From: a virus
Strand: one strand, 5' to 3'
Virus record (IMG/VR): IMGVR_UViG_3300048904_000182
Coordinates: 1 to 35,061 of that record
DNA: 35,061 nucleotides
In this document: piece by piece, positions 22,100-27,995 of the stretch
Numbering within the stretch: position 1 is the first letter of the stretch
Layout of the letters: every line of letters starts with the position of its first letter
Position numbers and translations under genes: made by a program
The notes under the pieces: generated by a model
What the model saw: the letters and a program-made list of their open reading frames with translations, nothing else
What the model was told of the DNA's origin: nothing
The model's database searches: none

Positions 22100-22365
22100 G
22101 CACGGCGCAGGCCTCGACGCTCATCGCGCTCCTCGCGTTGAACTACGTCGCGCTCGCCGTCGGAGCCGTCGTGATCGTCCACCGCGGCTGCGACCAGATC
22201 CGGCGCGACCTCGACCAGCCGCACGAGCCGGAGTGGGACAGCTGGACGGAAGGCAAGGGCCGCTGCCCGATCTGCCGTGATCTACCGAAACGCGACTTCG
22301 CGGCCGTCTGCGACTGCTGGCAGTACGAGCGTGAGTTCCCGAACGACACCGAGTTCTGGGCATGA
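22096..22365 (+). CDS. Membrane protein with zinc-binding cysteines
   Basis: An 89-residue protein from GTG 22096. It has an N-terminal transmembrane helix (LIALLALNYVALAVGAVVIV, residues 8-27), then CPICRDLPKRDF and CDCW, likely zinc ligands on the cytoplasmic side. Coupled at both ends. Function unknown. Confidence 0.6.
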   Translation: MSTAQASTLIALLALNYVALAVGAVVIVHRGCDQIRRDLDQPHEPEWDSWTEGKGRCPICRDLPKRDFAAVCDCWQYEREFPNDTEFWA

Positions 22366-23147
22366 GCGGGCTCGAGCGCAGGAATCACGGCCGCGGCCAC
22401 TCCTACTACATCGACGGCGCCAAGGTGCCCGGCATCACCACCGTCCTCAACCGCGGCATCCCGAAACCACAATTCGCCGTCGCCGACGTCAAGAAAGCCG
22501 GCCGCTACGCAATCGACTACTGGGACGAGCTCGCCGAGCTCCCGATCTCCGAACGACTGGAACGGATCGTCGGCGCCCCACGCGCCATGCTCACCGCCGC
22601 CGGCGTCCGCGGCACCGCCGTCCACAAGTTCGCCGAGCAGCTCCAGGCCGGCCAGGAGATCCAGGTGCCCGACGACCACCGCGGCTACGTCGACGCCTAC
22701 CTCGCCTTCGACCACGACTGGCAGCCCAAAGAGCACCTGATCGAGCGGCCGTTCTTCCACCGCCGGATGCTCTACGCCGGCACCCCCGACCTGCTCGCCG
22801 ACCTCGCCGACGGAAAACGCTGGCTGCTCGACTGGAAAACCACCGCCTCCGGGATCTGGCCGGAGCACGCGCTGCAGCTCGCCGCCGCCCGCTACGCCGA
22901 AGTCGCACTCGCCGCCGATGGCACCGAGCTCCCGGTCGCAGAACTCGGCATCCAGCAATGCGGTGCCGTCCACCTCCGCGACGACGGCACCTACGAACTC
23001 AGGCCGTGCGAATCAGGGCCAGAAGCGTTCCGGGCGTTCCTGCACGCCAAACAGCTCGCCGCCTTCACCGACTCGAGCCGCGAGGACTGGGTCGGCGACG
23101 CGCTCCTCCCCGCACCGGCCCAACCCGAAGGAGTGACCACCCGATGA
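22362..23147 (+). CDS. PD-(D/E)XK exonuclease (RecB/Cas4-like)
   Basis: A 261-residue protein. The nuclease motif is visible: GTPDLLADL with Asp143, then WLLDWKTTASG with Asp157 and Lys159, followed by ALQLAAARYAE, the helix with Gln and Tyr typical of RecB-like nucleases. It precedes a RecT-type gene, so it probably resects double-stranded DNA ends to single strands for annealing, as the exonuclease half of a phage recombination system. Start and stop overlap neighbours. Confidence 0.82.
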   Translation: MSGLERRNHGRGHSYYIDGAKVPGITTVLNRGIPKPQFAVADVKKAGRYAIDYWDELAELPISERLERIVGAPRAMLTAAGVRGTAVHKFAEQLQAGQEIQVPDDHRGYVDAYLAFDHDWQPKEHLIERPFFHRRMLYAGTPDLLADLADGKRWLLDWKTTASGIWPEHALQLAAARYAEVALAADGTELPVAELGIQQCGAVHLRDDGTYELRPCESGPEAFRAFLHAKQLAAFTDSSREDWVGDALLPAPAQPEGVTTR

Positions 23148-24211
23148 GCGTCGTCCCCTACACCAGCCCCGCGCCCGCACCATCCTCCTCCTATGCGGCC
23201 GACTGGCTGCTCGACCCGGCCGAGATCGCGAACCGGATCGGCGGCACCGACTTCGTCCCCCAGAACCTGCGCGACAACCCGGCCGCGATCACCGCCGCCC
23301 TGCTCTACGGCAACGAGGTCGGCCTCGGCCGAATGGCCTCCCTCGCAATGATCGCCGTGATCAACGGCCGCCCGACCCTGTCGGCTGAGGCGCAGCGCGC
23401 GCTAATCCTCGCCGCCGGCCACGAGGTCTGGTTCGAGGAATCCACCGTCAGCCGCTGCGTCGCCTGCGGCCGCCGCCGCGGCTCCGACGTCATCTCCCGG
23501 GTCTCCTGGACGATCGACGACGCCCGCAGGGCGAACCTGGAAGGAAAGCAGCCGTGGCGGATGTACCCGCGGCAGATGCTGCAGGCACGCGCGTCGGCGG
23601 AGCTCGCCCGGTCGATCTTCCCCGACGTCATCCGAGGCCTCCGCGCAACCGAAGAGCTCGAGGACGAGCCCGAGCAGGCCGCGATCGCCAACGGCGCTGC
23701 GCCCGAGCCGCCGAAGTCAACGCGGAAGCGGCGCACGAGAACAAGCGTCCAGGCCGGCGACCCCGCACCCACCCCAGCACCAACCGGCGACGACCGCGCC
23801 GAAGCCGAAGCGATCGTCCGCGAGTTCGAAACCGCTGCCCCTGCCGACCCGCCGGCGGACGACCCCGAACCTGTGGCGACCCAGGCGATGAAGAACAAGA
23901 TCTTCGCCACCATGCACGACCTCCGCTTCGACCCCGGCGACCGCGACGCCAGGCTCGGCTACGTCTCCCAAGTCATCGGCCGGCCGATCGCCTCCTCGAA
24001 CGACCTCACCATCTCCGAGGCCTCCCGGCTGATCGACCAGCTCGAGGCCGACGTTCAGGCCCGCCGCCGCGGCGAGCAAGCGCTGATCGACGAGCTGCAG
24101 CAGACATTCGCCGCCACCGAACAGCCGCAGGAACCGACGTCGTTCACGCCGCCGCCGGCCGTCCGCGACCAGCTCGCCGACCGCGACGACGACTTCCCCG
24201 AAGGCTTCTAA
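23144..24211 (+). CDS. recT: RecT-type single-strand annealing protein
   Basis: A 355-residue protein. The first 190 residues match the RecT pattern: YGNEVGLGRMASLAMIAVIN, the GRPTLSAEAQRALILAAGH core, and WRMYPRQMLQARASAELARS. Within it is an inserted CVACGRRRG pair, a possible zinc site. The C-terminal half has a Pro/Ala-rich linker and a separate helical domain (TQAMKNKIFATMHDLRFD; NDLTISEASRLIDQLE) as in some actinophage RecT proteins. It should anneal complementary strands during replication and recombination with the adjacent exonuclease. Confidence 0.85.
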   Translation: MSVVPYTSPAPAPSSSYAADWLLDPAEIANRIGGTDFVPQNLRDNPAAITAALLYGNEVGLGRMASLAMIAVINGRPTLSAEAQRALILAAGHEVWFEESTVSRCVACGRRRGSDVISRVSWTIDDARRANLEGKQPWRMYPRQMLQARASAELARSIFPDVIRGLRATEELEDEPEQAAIANGAAPEPPKSTRKRRTRTSVQAGDPAPTPAPTGDDRAEAEAIVREFETAAPADPPADDPEPVATQAMKNKIFATMHDLRFDPGDRDARLGYVSQVIGRPIASSNDLTISEASRLIDQLEADVQARRRGEQALIDELQQTFAATEQPQEPTSFTPPPAVRDQLADRDDDFPEGF

Positions 24212-24260
24212 CGATGCCGCCGCGTAACGCACACGTGACGCGTCACGAAGGGTTCAACCG

Positions 24261-24968
24261 ATGCCGGTGATCGACGACCGTCTCTGGTCGCATCCGAAGT
24301 GGACCGCACTTTCCGACGCAGGTTTTCGCGCGGGAATCATCGGGATTTCTTACGCGCACGAGCACATAACACGCGGACATTTGAGCGAAAAAACGCTCAG
24401 ATTTCTCGGCGTTCGACGGCGAGTGCGTAACGAACTGGTGACGCGTCACGTCTGGGATGCGCGAGACGACGGCGACGGCGTGCAGATCCACAACTGGAGC
24501 CAATACAACGACGACGACGCCCACGAACGCAAGCGGGAACTCGGCCGCGAAAGATCACGGCGGTGGCGCGCACGCAACGCGTCACGTAACGGTGACGGTG
24601 ACGATGGTGACGCGTCACCCGATGCGTCACCGGGTGCGTCACCTCGCGCGCGCGCGTACCTAGAAGAAGAAGAGTTAAGTACTACCCCCTTACCCCCGCG
24701 AAGCGGGGGCAACGTAACGCCCAGACAGGAAGGCACGAACCCGCGCACCCAGGGCACGAATCCGCGTGCCGTCGCCGACCGCGACCGCACCGACCGCCGC
24801 CGCGCGCTCATCGCCGCCGCCGCCAACCTCGCCGACACCCTCGAGCAGACCACGACCGACGTCGTCCACGAGCACCTCGACCAGCTCGAGCGCGAACACC
24901 ACGCCGTCCTCGCCGACAGCGACCGCACCCGCGTCATCGACCACTACCTCGCCAGATTCAATGGCTGA
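24261..24968 (+). CDS. Replication initiator-like protein (DnaD/O-like)
   Basis: A 235-residue protein starting at ATG 24261 with AAGGG eight bases upstream. The N-terminal 90 residues look like the winged-helix start of phage replication organisers (DDRLWSHPKWTALSDAGFRA, then LGVRRRVRNELVTRHVW and IHNWSQYN). A low-complexity middle (DASPDASPGASPRARAY) is encoded by repeats that look like initiator binding sites. The C-terminal part is helical (RRALIAAAANLADTLEQTT). Like lambda O, the protein may bind repeats in its own gene and recruit host helicase. No helicase or primase motifs. The family call is moderate. Confidence 0.65.
   Translation: MPVIDDRLWSHPKWTALSDAGFRAGIIGISYAHEHITRGHLSEKTLRFLGVRRRVRNELVTRHVWDARDDGDGVQIHNWSQYNDDDAHERKRELGRERSRRWRARNASRNGDGDDGDASPDASPGASPRARAYLEEEELSTTPLPPRSGGNVTPRQEGTNPRTQGTNPRAVADRDRTDRRRALIAAAANLADTLEQTTTDVVHEHLDQLEREHHAVLADSDRTRVIDHYLARFNG
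24382..24399. repeat. Small hairpin TGAGCG-A6-CGCTCA
   Basis: A 6-bp inverted repeat with an AAAAAA loop within an A/T-rich patch of the initiator gene. It may add to strand opening or be a protein site; no function shown. Confidence 0.35.
24693..24709. repeat. Strong hairpin CCCCCGC-GAA-GCGGGGG
   Basis: A perfect 7-bp stem with a GAA loop, which is a very stable minihairpin class, directly after the A/T-rich tract and iterons. It could be a primer or nick structure of the origin, or a transcript element. Confidence 0.5.
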
Positions 24969-25455
24969 CCGCGTCGAGTTCACCGTCCTCGGCGAGGCCC
25001 AGCCGCAGGGCTCGAAGACCGTCGGCCGAAACCACGCCGGCGACTCCTACGTCCGTGAGGACAACCCGAAGACGCAGCCCTGGCGGCAGGCGGTCGCCGC
25101 CGCCGCGACCGCCGCGATGGACGGCCGCCAGGTTCGTACCGGCCCGGTCGAGCTCCGGATCGTCTTCGTCTTCCCACGCCCACAGGGGCACTTCGGCACC
25201 GGCCGCAACGCCGGCCGGCTGAAACCGTCGGCGCCGCTCTACGTCCGCACCCGCCCCGACGTCGACAAGCTGCTCCGCGCGATCGGCGACGCACTGACCG
25301 GAGTCGTCTTCCGCGACGACGCCCAAGCCGTGATCGTGCGAGCCGAAAAGCACTACGGGGAGCCGCCGTGCGCGCACGTGATCGTCGAAGAACTCGCGCT
25401 CAATGACGATCGGCCGGCGCCCGAAGGGGTAGCGAACTCGCGCCGCAGTGCCTAG
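24961..25455 (+). CDS. rusA: RusA-family Holliday junction resolvase
   Basis: A 164-residue protein. It has the RusA core: RPDVDKLLRAIGDALTGVVF followed by RDDAQ. Asp100 and Asp102 plus an Asp at 119-120 match the three catalytic aspartates of the family. The N-terminus (FTVLGEAQPQGSKTVGRN) is also typical. It resolves branched DNA left by replication and recombination so the genome can be packaged. The ATG overlaps the initiator gene end by 8 bases. Confidence 0.92.
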   Translation: MADRVEFTVLGEAQPQGSKTVGRNHAGDSYVREDNPKTQPWRQAVAAAATAAMDGRQVRTGPVELRIVFVFPRPQGHFGTGRNAGRLKPSAPLYVRTRPDVDKLLRAIGDALTGVVFRDDAQAVIVRAEKHYGEPPCAHVIVEELALNDDRPAPEGVANSRRSA

Positions 25456-25625: not shown

Positions 25626-27059
25626 GTGGCACAACCGGTCACCTACTGGGAGCGTCGCGCCGCCGGCGAGTTCGAACGCGTCGCCGCCGAACGCGCCCGC
25701 GAGCTCGAAGCCGCAGCCCAAATCGAAGCCGCCGCGACTGACCAGCCGGTAGTCGACCCGCATCACCCCGACCCGCCCGAGCCGACCGAGCACATCCCGA
25801 TCGGCTCCTGGAACGAGCTCTACGACCAGATGTACGAGTGGCGCGAAGAGCTGATCGTCTCCGGCGACAGCCCGTTCATCACCGGCCCGACCGGCCCCCA
25901 AGGACCGCAGGGCCCGCAAGGCCCCGCAGGATCGGAAGGCCCACAAGGGCCGCTCGGCGCGCAGGGCCTCGCAGGTCCGCAGGGCCCTGAAGGCCCACAA
26001 GGCCCGCCCGGCACTGGGATCACCGTCAAGGGCTCCGTCCAGAACGTCGGCAGCCTCCCGACGACCGGCAACAAGCCGGGCGACGCGTACGTCGTCTCGA
26101 ACACCGGCGACCTCCACGTGTGGGACGGCGCCCAGTGGATCGACATGGGCCCGCTCCAGGGCCCGCAGGGCCCGCAAGGCGCGCAGGGCGCGGCCGGCGC
26201 GCAAGGCCCGCAGGGAATCGCGGGCACCGCAGGCGCGACCGGCGCCGACGGCGTCCAGGGCCCGATCGGGCCGGCAGGCCCGCAAGGACCGAAGGGCGAC
26301 ACCGGTCCGCCCGGCGCCACAGGGCCGCAGGGTGCAGCCGGGCCGACGGGCGCCGACAGCACCGCGCCCGGCCCGCAGGGACCCGCAGGCCCGCAAGGCG
26401 TCGCAGGCGCGCAAGGGCCGAAAGGCGACCCCGGCGCGCCGGGCTCGCAGGGCCCGCAAGGCGCGACCGGCGCCACCGGGACGCAAGGCGCGAAGGGCGA
26501 CACCGGCGCCGCCGGCGCCCAAGGCCCCGCCGGCCCCGGCGTCCCCGCCGGCGGCACCGCCGGCCAGCAGCTCGTCAAGAGCTCGAGCGCCGACTACGCG
26601 ACCGCCTGGGCAACCGACACCGGCGGGTGGACAGTCGTGCGCAAGACCGCCGACGAGTCCGTCGCGAACGCGACGATCCAGGACGACGACCAGCTGCAGT
26701 TCACGACCGTCGCCGGCACCGCCTACGAGCTCGAGCTGCTCGCGATCTACGCCTCACCCGCCGGCGCCGGCACACCCGACCTCAAGTGCGAACTATCCGA
26801 GGACGCGACCGCGCGCGGAGCATGCATGTGGACCGGGCTCAGCACGACCGACGCCGCCCAGACGCTGACCACGACCGACATCGGCGGCGCGACCGCCACC
26901 TTCGGCACCGCCGCCGCCAAACGCATCGTGCGCGGCGTCGCCACCCACGTCGGCAACGGCGGCCAGCTCAAGTTCCGCTGGGCGCAGAACACCACCACCG
27001 CCGGCTCCCCAACCCTCGTCTACACCGGCTCCGTCCTCCGCTACCGGGCGCTCGCATGA
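25626..27059 (+). CDS. Collagen-like fibre protein
   Basis: A 477-residue protein from GTG 25626. Residues 1-86 are helical. Gly-X-Y collagen repeats fill about 87-131, 179-244 and 249-305 (56 triplets). A small domain interrupts them ([20 protein letters not shown], then [13 protein letters not shown]), a module common in phage fibres. The C-terminal 170 residues are a beta-rich knob ([37 protein letters not shown]). The collagen parts should form a trimeric stalk with the knob at the end. The gene lies far from the tail genes, beside the packaging end, so a head fibre or separate host-attachment fibre is likely. Position and role are inference. Confidence 0.8.
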
Positions 27060-27598
27060 ACACCACCACCGCACCGCCGATGCTCCAGAACCACGTCGAG
27101 TTCCAACAGCTGCTCGACCTCTACGTCGAGCGCGGTCCGGAGCGCGTACTCGAGGTCGGCGTCGGCGAAGGCGGAACGCTCTACCGGTGGCTCCTCTACG
27201 CGACCGCCGGCGCGCGCATCGTCGCGCTCGACGACCGCCACCTGAACCGCGACGCCTACTCGAGCTGGACGCCCGACAGCGTCGAGTTGGTCACGATCAC
27301 CGGCAGCTCGCACGACCCCGACGTCCTGCTCGACGTCGCCGGCTACCGCCCGTTCGACTTCATCTTCCTCGACGCCGACCACCACGACCACGCCGTCCGC
27401 GCCGACTGGCGCCACTTCAGCGCGATGGCCGCACCCCACGCCGCGATCGCCCTGCACGACATCGCACCCTCCATCGACCCGACGATCCACGTCGACCAGC
27501 TCTGGCGCGAGCTCGCACACGAGCACGACACCTGCGAGTTCACCGTGCCCGGTGGGCCGGGCATCGGCGTCGTCCTCCTCGACAAGGCGCACCGATGA
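27056..27598 (+). CDS. SAM-dependent methyltransferase (class I, sugar-type)
   Basis: A 180-residue protein whose ATG overlaps the fibre stop. It has [16 protein letters not shown] (SAM-binding glycine loop), IVALDDR (second motif), [18 protein letters not shown] and IALHDIAPS. This set fits the Methyltransf_24/CmcI-like class that often acts on sugar hydroxyls. No DNA-methylase NPPY motif was seen, so restriction protection is unlikely. It may methylate glycans added by the two glycosyltransferases (inference). Confidence 0.75.
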
Positions 27599-27786: not shown

Positions 27787-27995
27787 CCGACGACCGCGCG
27801 CGCACCGCGCTCAACGAACTGAGCGACGCGCTCGGCGCCGCCGCCGCCGAGTACGACCGGCTGCGTGCCAGCTCCGAGACCGCCGACCAGAACCTGCAAG
27901 CGTTCGCGGACGCCGTCAGCCAGGCGGCCGACAGCCTGCGCACGCTCGCGCCGCAGCACGAGCAGGCCGAGCAGGAGCAGGCCGAGGGCGCGTGA
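27783..27995 (+). CDS. Small coiled-coil protein
   Basis: A 70-residue, Ala/Glu/Gln-rich helical protein (LNELSDALGAAAAEYDRLRA, then LQAFADAVSQAADSLRTLA). It is the last gene before the packaging group. No family recognised. The 31 bases after it hold AGAAGCCCGGTTTTT, a T run without a convincing stem. Confidence 0.6.
   Translation: MTDDRARTALNELSDALGAAAAEYDRLRASSETADQNLQAFADAVSQAADSLRTLAPQHEQAEQEQAEGA

Follow-up and report, generated by a model that had tools for sequence, protein, structure and literature searches.

A probable theta replication origin embedded in the initiator gene of a tailed phage

Initiator genes that carry their own origin

The plan of an origin placed within the gene of its own initiator is already known. 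In phage lambda, the iterons bound by the O protein lie midway along the O gene, and the AT-rich tract next to them unwinds (PMC7466680). In pSK41, the Rep boxes occupy the center of rep, and the linker that they encode is dispensable (PMC5703833). The N-terminal domain (NTD) of the RepA_N initiators mediates the binding to ori (PMC5703833). For a mycobacteriophage repA, Wetzel et al. suggest that an origin, which they did not map, might be situated within the gene or just before it, lambda-like (PMC7157519).

The window analysed here is the whole record IMGVR_UViG_3300048904_000182 (35,061 bases, 69% GC), the genome of a tailed phage closest in kind to the actinobacterial phages. The feature described below is probably (probability of about 0.8) the theta replication origin of this phage, embedded in its own initiator gene, built like those of lambda O and pSK41 and belonging to a separate sequence family. 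The initiator gene is placed between a RecT gene upstream and a RusA gene downstream:

22277–24211, + strand: gene of a RecT-like single-strand annealing protein (phrog_4171, E 1.1e-39; start codon uncertain)
24261–24968, + strand: replication initiator ORF, 235 aa (phrog_1882, 3.6e-16; phrog_2447, 5e-15; phrog_3926, 3.6e-13)
24261–24512, + strand: predicted winged-helix domain, codons 1-84 (AlphaFold2, high local confidence; structural neighbours with Z up to about 8)
24513–24593, + strand: long basic helix AHERKRELGRERSRRWRARNASRNGDG, codons 85-111, the proposed iteron reader (predicted helix 85-111/113)
24961–25455, + strand: gene of a RusA-like resolvase (PF05866, 8.3e-18; phrog_140, 8e-35)

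The RusA-like ORF is open from 24766 and its likely start overlaps the stop of the initiator. Farther downstream, a collagen-repeat tail-fibre-like gene (25626-27059; PF01391, 1.8e-23) is found between RusA and the terminase. It is followed by an open frame (27059-27598) whose translation (...FIFLDADH) resembles a class I methyltransferase.

The initiator matches the replication initiation profiles PHROG 2447, 1882 and 3926, as do the 47 of 47 family members tested. The initial annotation of the gene as a replication initiator agrees with this annotation-based match and is kept as a prediction. Other searches returned little: no Pfam family at E<=1 for the window protein, no usable match in NCBIfam, chance matches only in a profile search of the PDB and nothing at E<=0.001 in Foldseek. 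The structural neighbours listed by VIA are generic winged helices.

The layout follows that of lambda, as had been proposed, with a different sequence. In both cases the iterons lie in the initiator gene after the DNA-binding part (O codons 117-145) and are followed by an A/T-rich, purine-rich tract (PMC7466680). However, the window protein and 41 relatives have no Pfam match to the phage O family, which places them outside the lambda O sequence family. Lambda carries four iterons of 18 bp, about 20-24 bp apart, whereas the window carries short GTGAC-based sites with a 12-bp spacing, together with a CG run and a C-run hairpin. Moreover, no P-like helicase loader gene was identified beside the window initiator, the next gene being RusA. 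In the Appa-like Microbacterium phages, the homologous gene is annotated 'RepA-like replication initiator' and is followed by a helicase loader and a DnaB-like helicase.

The organization of the staphylococcal RepA_N protein pSK41 Rep is also comparable, with an N-terminal DNA-binding domain of ~120 aa, Rep boxes in the DNA that encodes the central linker and a variable C-terminal domain (PMC5703833). The RepA_N NTD structure 4pql superimposes with Z 6.5 (rmsd 3.0 over 76 residues), a score tied with those of many unrelated winged helices. On the other hand, neither the window protein nor the 41 relatives match PF06970 at E<=1, the repeats and the C-terminus are not comparable, and the window family comes from actinobacterial phages and prophages. 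Phage_rep_org_N (PF09681) also comprises phage initiators with a comparable N-terminal role, but its matches are sub-threshold and limited to 4 of 41 members (best E 0.042). The nearest described proteins are the PHROG 2447/1882/3926 initiators of the Gordonia phages Vasanti and DumpsterDude, the Microbacterium Appa-like phages and Propionibacterium E6. These share the protein family and carry repeats in the same linker, but differ in repeat class, in having a (CCCGN)n tract in most cases and in their C-terminal domains. Given the lack of Pfam matches, the failed sequence tests for lambda O and RepA_N and the particular repeat architecture, the locus is a variant within the known plan, of a family that is distinct by sequence comparison.

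Repeats and adjoining elements in the window

The DNA elements are listed below without strand. L010 is a close relative (IMGVR 3300047160_002253) with 70% identity to the window over the whole protein and about 81% in the N-terminal part.

24222–24247: compound site CGTAACG-N6-GTGACGCGTCAC(G), which holds palindrome 1 (24235-24246), between RecT and the initiator
24425–24450: compound site holding palindrome 2 (24438-24449), read as VTRH; conserved in L010
24574–24585: degenerate palindrome GCAACGCGTCAC with 2 mismatches; L010 counterpart CGTCACGCGTCAC
24585–24603: CGTAACG and two GTGACG half sites (24592, 24598); GTGACG pair in or beside a gap in L010
24607–24618: palindrome 3, encoding GDASP in a frame shifted by one from that of palindrome 2; L010 counterpart GTAACGCGTCAC
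24624–24642: two further GCGTCAC half sites, each 12 bp past the previous one; spacing and sites kept in L010
24645–24656: (CG)6 run, the longest of the record; kept in L010
24657–24683: A/T-rich, purine-rich tract TACCTAGAAGAAGAAGAGTTAAGTACT, a candidate unwinding element; AGAAGAAGAAGAAG kept in L010
24685–24709: C5TTAC5 overlapping the hairpin CCCCCGC-GAA-GCGGGGG (24693-24709); conserved in L010 with the frame shifted and an AGA loop

The exact 12-mer GTGACGCGTCAC occurs at 24235, 24438 and 24607 only in the whole 35 kb record. The initial annotation placed all three copies in the initiator gene; the number holds, with two copies in the gene and the first one upstream of it, at 24235-24246. 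This copy is within the 49 bp that separate the RecT stop (24211) from the initiator ATG (24261) and ends 14 bp before the ATG. The compound site that contains it is 88% identical over 26 bp to that at 24425-24450. The five or more half sites reported earlier are likewise recovered, five being counted outside the palindromes (GCGTCAC at 24579, 24624 and 24636; GTGACG at 24592 and 24598). Half sites occupy 24579-24642 and three of them are exactly 12 bp apart (24612, 24624, 24636). The main array corresponds to codons about 105-128, C-terminal to the winged helix, in the DNA encoding the central linker. The array region holds 9 of the 18 GCGTCAC/GTGACGC words of the record, as well as its densest 450-bp cluster of CGT(C/A)AC words (14).

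The contribution of the coding sequence was assessed by permuting synonymous codons within the gene (n=20,000), which holds both the peptide and the codon usage. The seven half-site words observed were reached in 0 of the 20,000 shuffles (mean 1.2), and the two palindromes of the gene in 13. An origin of the repeats in ordinary low-complexity coding is rejected by this shuffling. In addition, the identical 12-mer is non-coding at 24235, encodes VTRH at 24438 and, shifted by one frame, GDASP at 24607. The repeats are real and go beyond what the protein sequence or the codon choice explains.

The (CG)n run, the A/T-rich tract and the 7-bp GAA hairpin said to follow the repeats are all located, within 24645-24709. 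The tract at 24657-24683 has 33% GC, a value as low being found in only 0.03% of the 27-nt windows of the record. The hairpin alone is unremarkable in the window, since 57 perfect stems of at least 7 bp occur in the 35 kb. As an intrinsic terminator the hairpin was discarded, there being no T-run after the stem. An origin of the DnaA-box type is not indicated, because DnaA boxes are absent from the record and present in 2 of 58 relatives. The GC skew, which had been proposed as a check, gives no support: it does not switch at the initiator site and its cumulative minimum is at 27,959, in a record that may be incomplete. Another perfect inverted repeat of 6 bp, TGAGCG-AAAAAA-CGCTCA (24382-24399), is situated in a stretch (24271-24400) of about 54-57% GC, among the lowest of the record, and is only partly kept in L010.

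A regulatory role of the sites was also considered. The palindromes could be operators bound by a phage repressor, or by the initiator as an autorepressor, for the control of the early operon, with replication starting elsewhere. The perfect palindrome GTGACGCGTCAC is indeed typical of dimeric regulators, and one copy is directly upstream of the ORF. However, most sites are deep in the coding sequence, in the form of direct half sites spaced by 12 bp next to an A/T-rich tract, relatives have the same in-gene array with different sequences, and the upstream copy is missing at that place in L010. This reading is consequently regarded as improbable.

In the theta origin that is favored, the initiator would assemble on the iterons as dimers or larger complexes, the palindromes acting as inverted sites and the linker as a series of 12-bp-spaced direct sites. 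The initiator-iteron complex would then melt the A/T-rich tract beside it, and a helicase loader, a helicase or a primase would be recruited by the C-terminal region of the protein to start theta replication. Autoregulation of the initiator gene may be a further role of the upstream palindrome, and the linker peptide NASRNGDGDDGDASPDASPGASPRARA would be mostly a by-product of the DNA encoded.

Conservation of the region among relatives

The window and L010 have in common palindrome 2, the array of half sites at 12-bp steps, the CG run and the GAAGAAGAA tract, and C5TTAC5 and the hairpin are also kept. L010 lacks a palindrome at the upstream place and has an extra one 3' of the hairpin. The conservation in relatives proposed earlier as a check is thus observed, with some turnover of sites in L010 and, across the family, in kind rather than in sequence. 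The block 24680-24704 is 80% identical to L010 in DNA and is read in a different frame (TTPLPPRSGG versus DPLTPAERG). The maintenance of this 25-bp block despite the different frame is direct evidence that selection here acts on the DNA and not on the peptide. Within this pair the stem is identical and the loop alone differs (GAA, AGA), so no compensatory change is seen.

A blastn search of 24560-24730 against phage records gave no match, and the matches of the wider region are to collagen-like tail-fibre sequence, the DNA of the collagen-repeat gene being the source of most of them. The IMG/VR scan with a single sequence found nothing, and a scan specific to the window and L010 retrieved only the L010 contig and one distant contig. 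The phage-record and IMG/VR searches yielded no closely related phage isolate from the subfamily of the window.

A broader set was obtained from an IMG/VR profile scan (53 viral loci), to which loci in bacterial genomes, probably prophages, were later added; 46-58 dereplicated relatives were used. The bacterial loci are in Nocardia, Microbacterium, Tsukamurella, Curtobacterium, Nesterenkonia, Arcanobacterium and Leucobacter, and the hosts of the annotated relatives are Gordonia, Microbacterium and Propionibacterium. Across these relatives the corresponding linker is saturated with repeats spaced by 12 bp, the repeat sequence varying with the relative. Over 46 dereplicated genes, the fraction of bases covered by locally repeated 7-mers climbs from about 0.2 and reaches 0.60-0.63 in the interval 120-210 nt past the HDW motif, where codon shuffles give 0.27-0.30. 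The spacing of exact repeats in these genes peaks at 12, 24 and 36, corresponding to the iterons, and at 10, 15 and 20, corresponding to a pentamer tract. The repeat excess over the codon shuffles has z>3 in 39 of 55 genes. In Propionibacterium E6, the repeats extend beyond a shortened ORF and are largely outside the gene.

The pentamer tract, of the (CCCGN)n type and detected as (C3+N1-4)x4, is found in 44 of 58 relatives, with 46 hits in the coding strand and 0 in the other. By comparison, 245 kb of flanking DNA contain 8 hits, and codon shuffles predict 11.6. In L020, L042 and L045 the tract consists of CCATT repeats and is located before the iterons, so that it is not always quadruplex-capable. 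A perfect stem of at least 6 bp follows within 50 nt in 26 of the 43 relatives with a located tract, versus 7% of random segments. The commonest hairpin has a TAAC, TGAC or TAAA loop and a C-G closing pair, and its stem changes compensate on both sides. The window and L010 are without the (CCCGN)n tract and have the C-run hairpin instead.

These comparisons bear on whether the repeats are merely low-complexity coding sequence grown by replication slippage, with no function at the DNA level. Slippage would agree with the repetitive peptide (DASPDASPGASP) and with in-frame units of 12 bp (4 codons), the kind that expansion in frame should produce, and the pentamer tracts of the relatives also look slippage-prone. 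Nevertheless, codon shuffles keep the peptide and lose the repeats, the same unit is found in several frames and also beyond the gene, and one block is conserved out of frame. Together with the compensated stems of the relatives and a repeat class that tracks the adjacent helix, this makes slippage highly improbable. The reading of the repeats in more than one frame and the frame-shifted C-run/hairpin block in L010 argue instead that the DNA constrains the low-complexity peptide, in line with the earlier proposal that this peptide exists because the DNA must carry the repeats. The locus would then be a clear case in which DNA function dictates a low-complexity protein sequence.

Co-variation of the basic helix and the iterons

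In the AlphaFold2 models the basic segment is one long helix (residues 85-111), C-terminal to the winged-helix domain; the C-terminal domains of the relatives differ. The iterons of the relatives fall into GTGAC, GTTAC, TGGCAA, AGCAAA, GGGAC and GTTCG classes, assigned only from DNA downstream of the protein segment compared. Relatives with no detectable class were 3 in the first classification and 5 in a stricter one.

When each relative is paired with its nearest neighbour in the 22-aa basic segment (HDW+6 to +28), the two share a class in 46 of 52 cases (mean of 16.4 and maximum of 29 in permutations), in a test that is exploratory, the classes having been drawn up after inspection of the sequences, and in which some of the association reflects shared ancestry. 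With the winged-helix identity held below 55%, the basic segment still gives 37 of 52, while the winged helix (18 of 52) and the C-terminus (19 of 46) are both at chance. In a sliding scan the class signal peaks at the basic helix and is near chance on either side. All 13 members of the GTTAC class have V or L directly after RxR, and all 26 of the GTGAC class have Q, K, S or A at this position (Fisher 1e-10, a statistic that ignores shared ancestry). The joint change of the repeat sequence and one protein helix, across about 50 relatives, suggests how the protein recognises its site: the winged-helix domain would serve as a scaffold and the long basic helix that follows it would read the GTGAC half sites in the major groove.

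The same origin could nonetheless be read by the winged helix, the basic helix co-varying through linkage or recombination; this challenges one step of the proposed mechanism and not the origin itself. Winged helices commonly bind DNA, the RepA_N NTD mediates ori binding (PMC5703833), and linkage makes adjacent segments co-inherit. Linkage alone, however, would favor both flanks of the iterons, and such a pattern is not observed: the C-terminal segments, also near the iterons on the other side, have little or no association. The similarity of the winged helix is uninformative below 55% identity, and a single residue position splits the GTTAC from the GTGAC classes without exception. Recognition by the winged helix is accordingly rather unlikely.

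With the basic helix as reader, the proposal can be extended, at about even odds, to the family as a whole: in widespread actinobacterial phage initiators a variable basic helix would read the origin, each gene would carry the iterons that match its helix only a few codons farther on, and helix and iterons may form one exchangeable specificity cassette, with about six repeat classes, a C-strand tract in most members able to form a quadruplex or i-motif, and a TNAC-type hairpin in about half of the members with the tract. No description of the origin of this family, or of such a cassette, was found in the open-access literature. The analysis indicates where replication probably starts in many actinobacterial phages and prophages, for none of which a mapped origin was found. 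It also provides a testable recognition code from basic helix to iteron class and candidate origins that could be transferred to vectors for actinobacteria that are hard to work with.

In two relatives, L023 (2486-3445) and L069, an inserted HNH-endonuclease-like domain separates the basic helix from the C-tract, at the place where the others carry iterons. Separately, phrog_15463 'HNH endonuclease' is also matched by 32 of 47 relatives, probably on account of the N-terminus that they share, and this may explain the annotation of Gordonia phage Vasanti gp65 as an HNH endonuclease.
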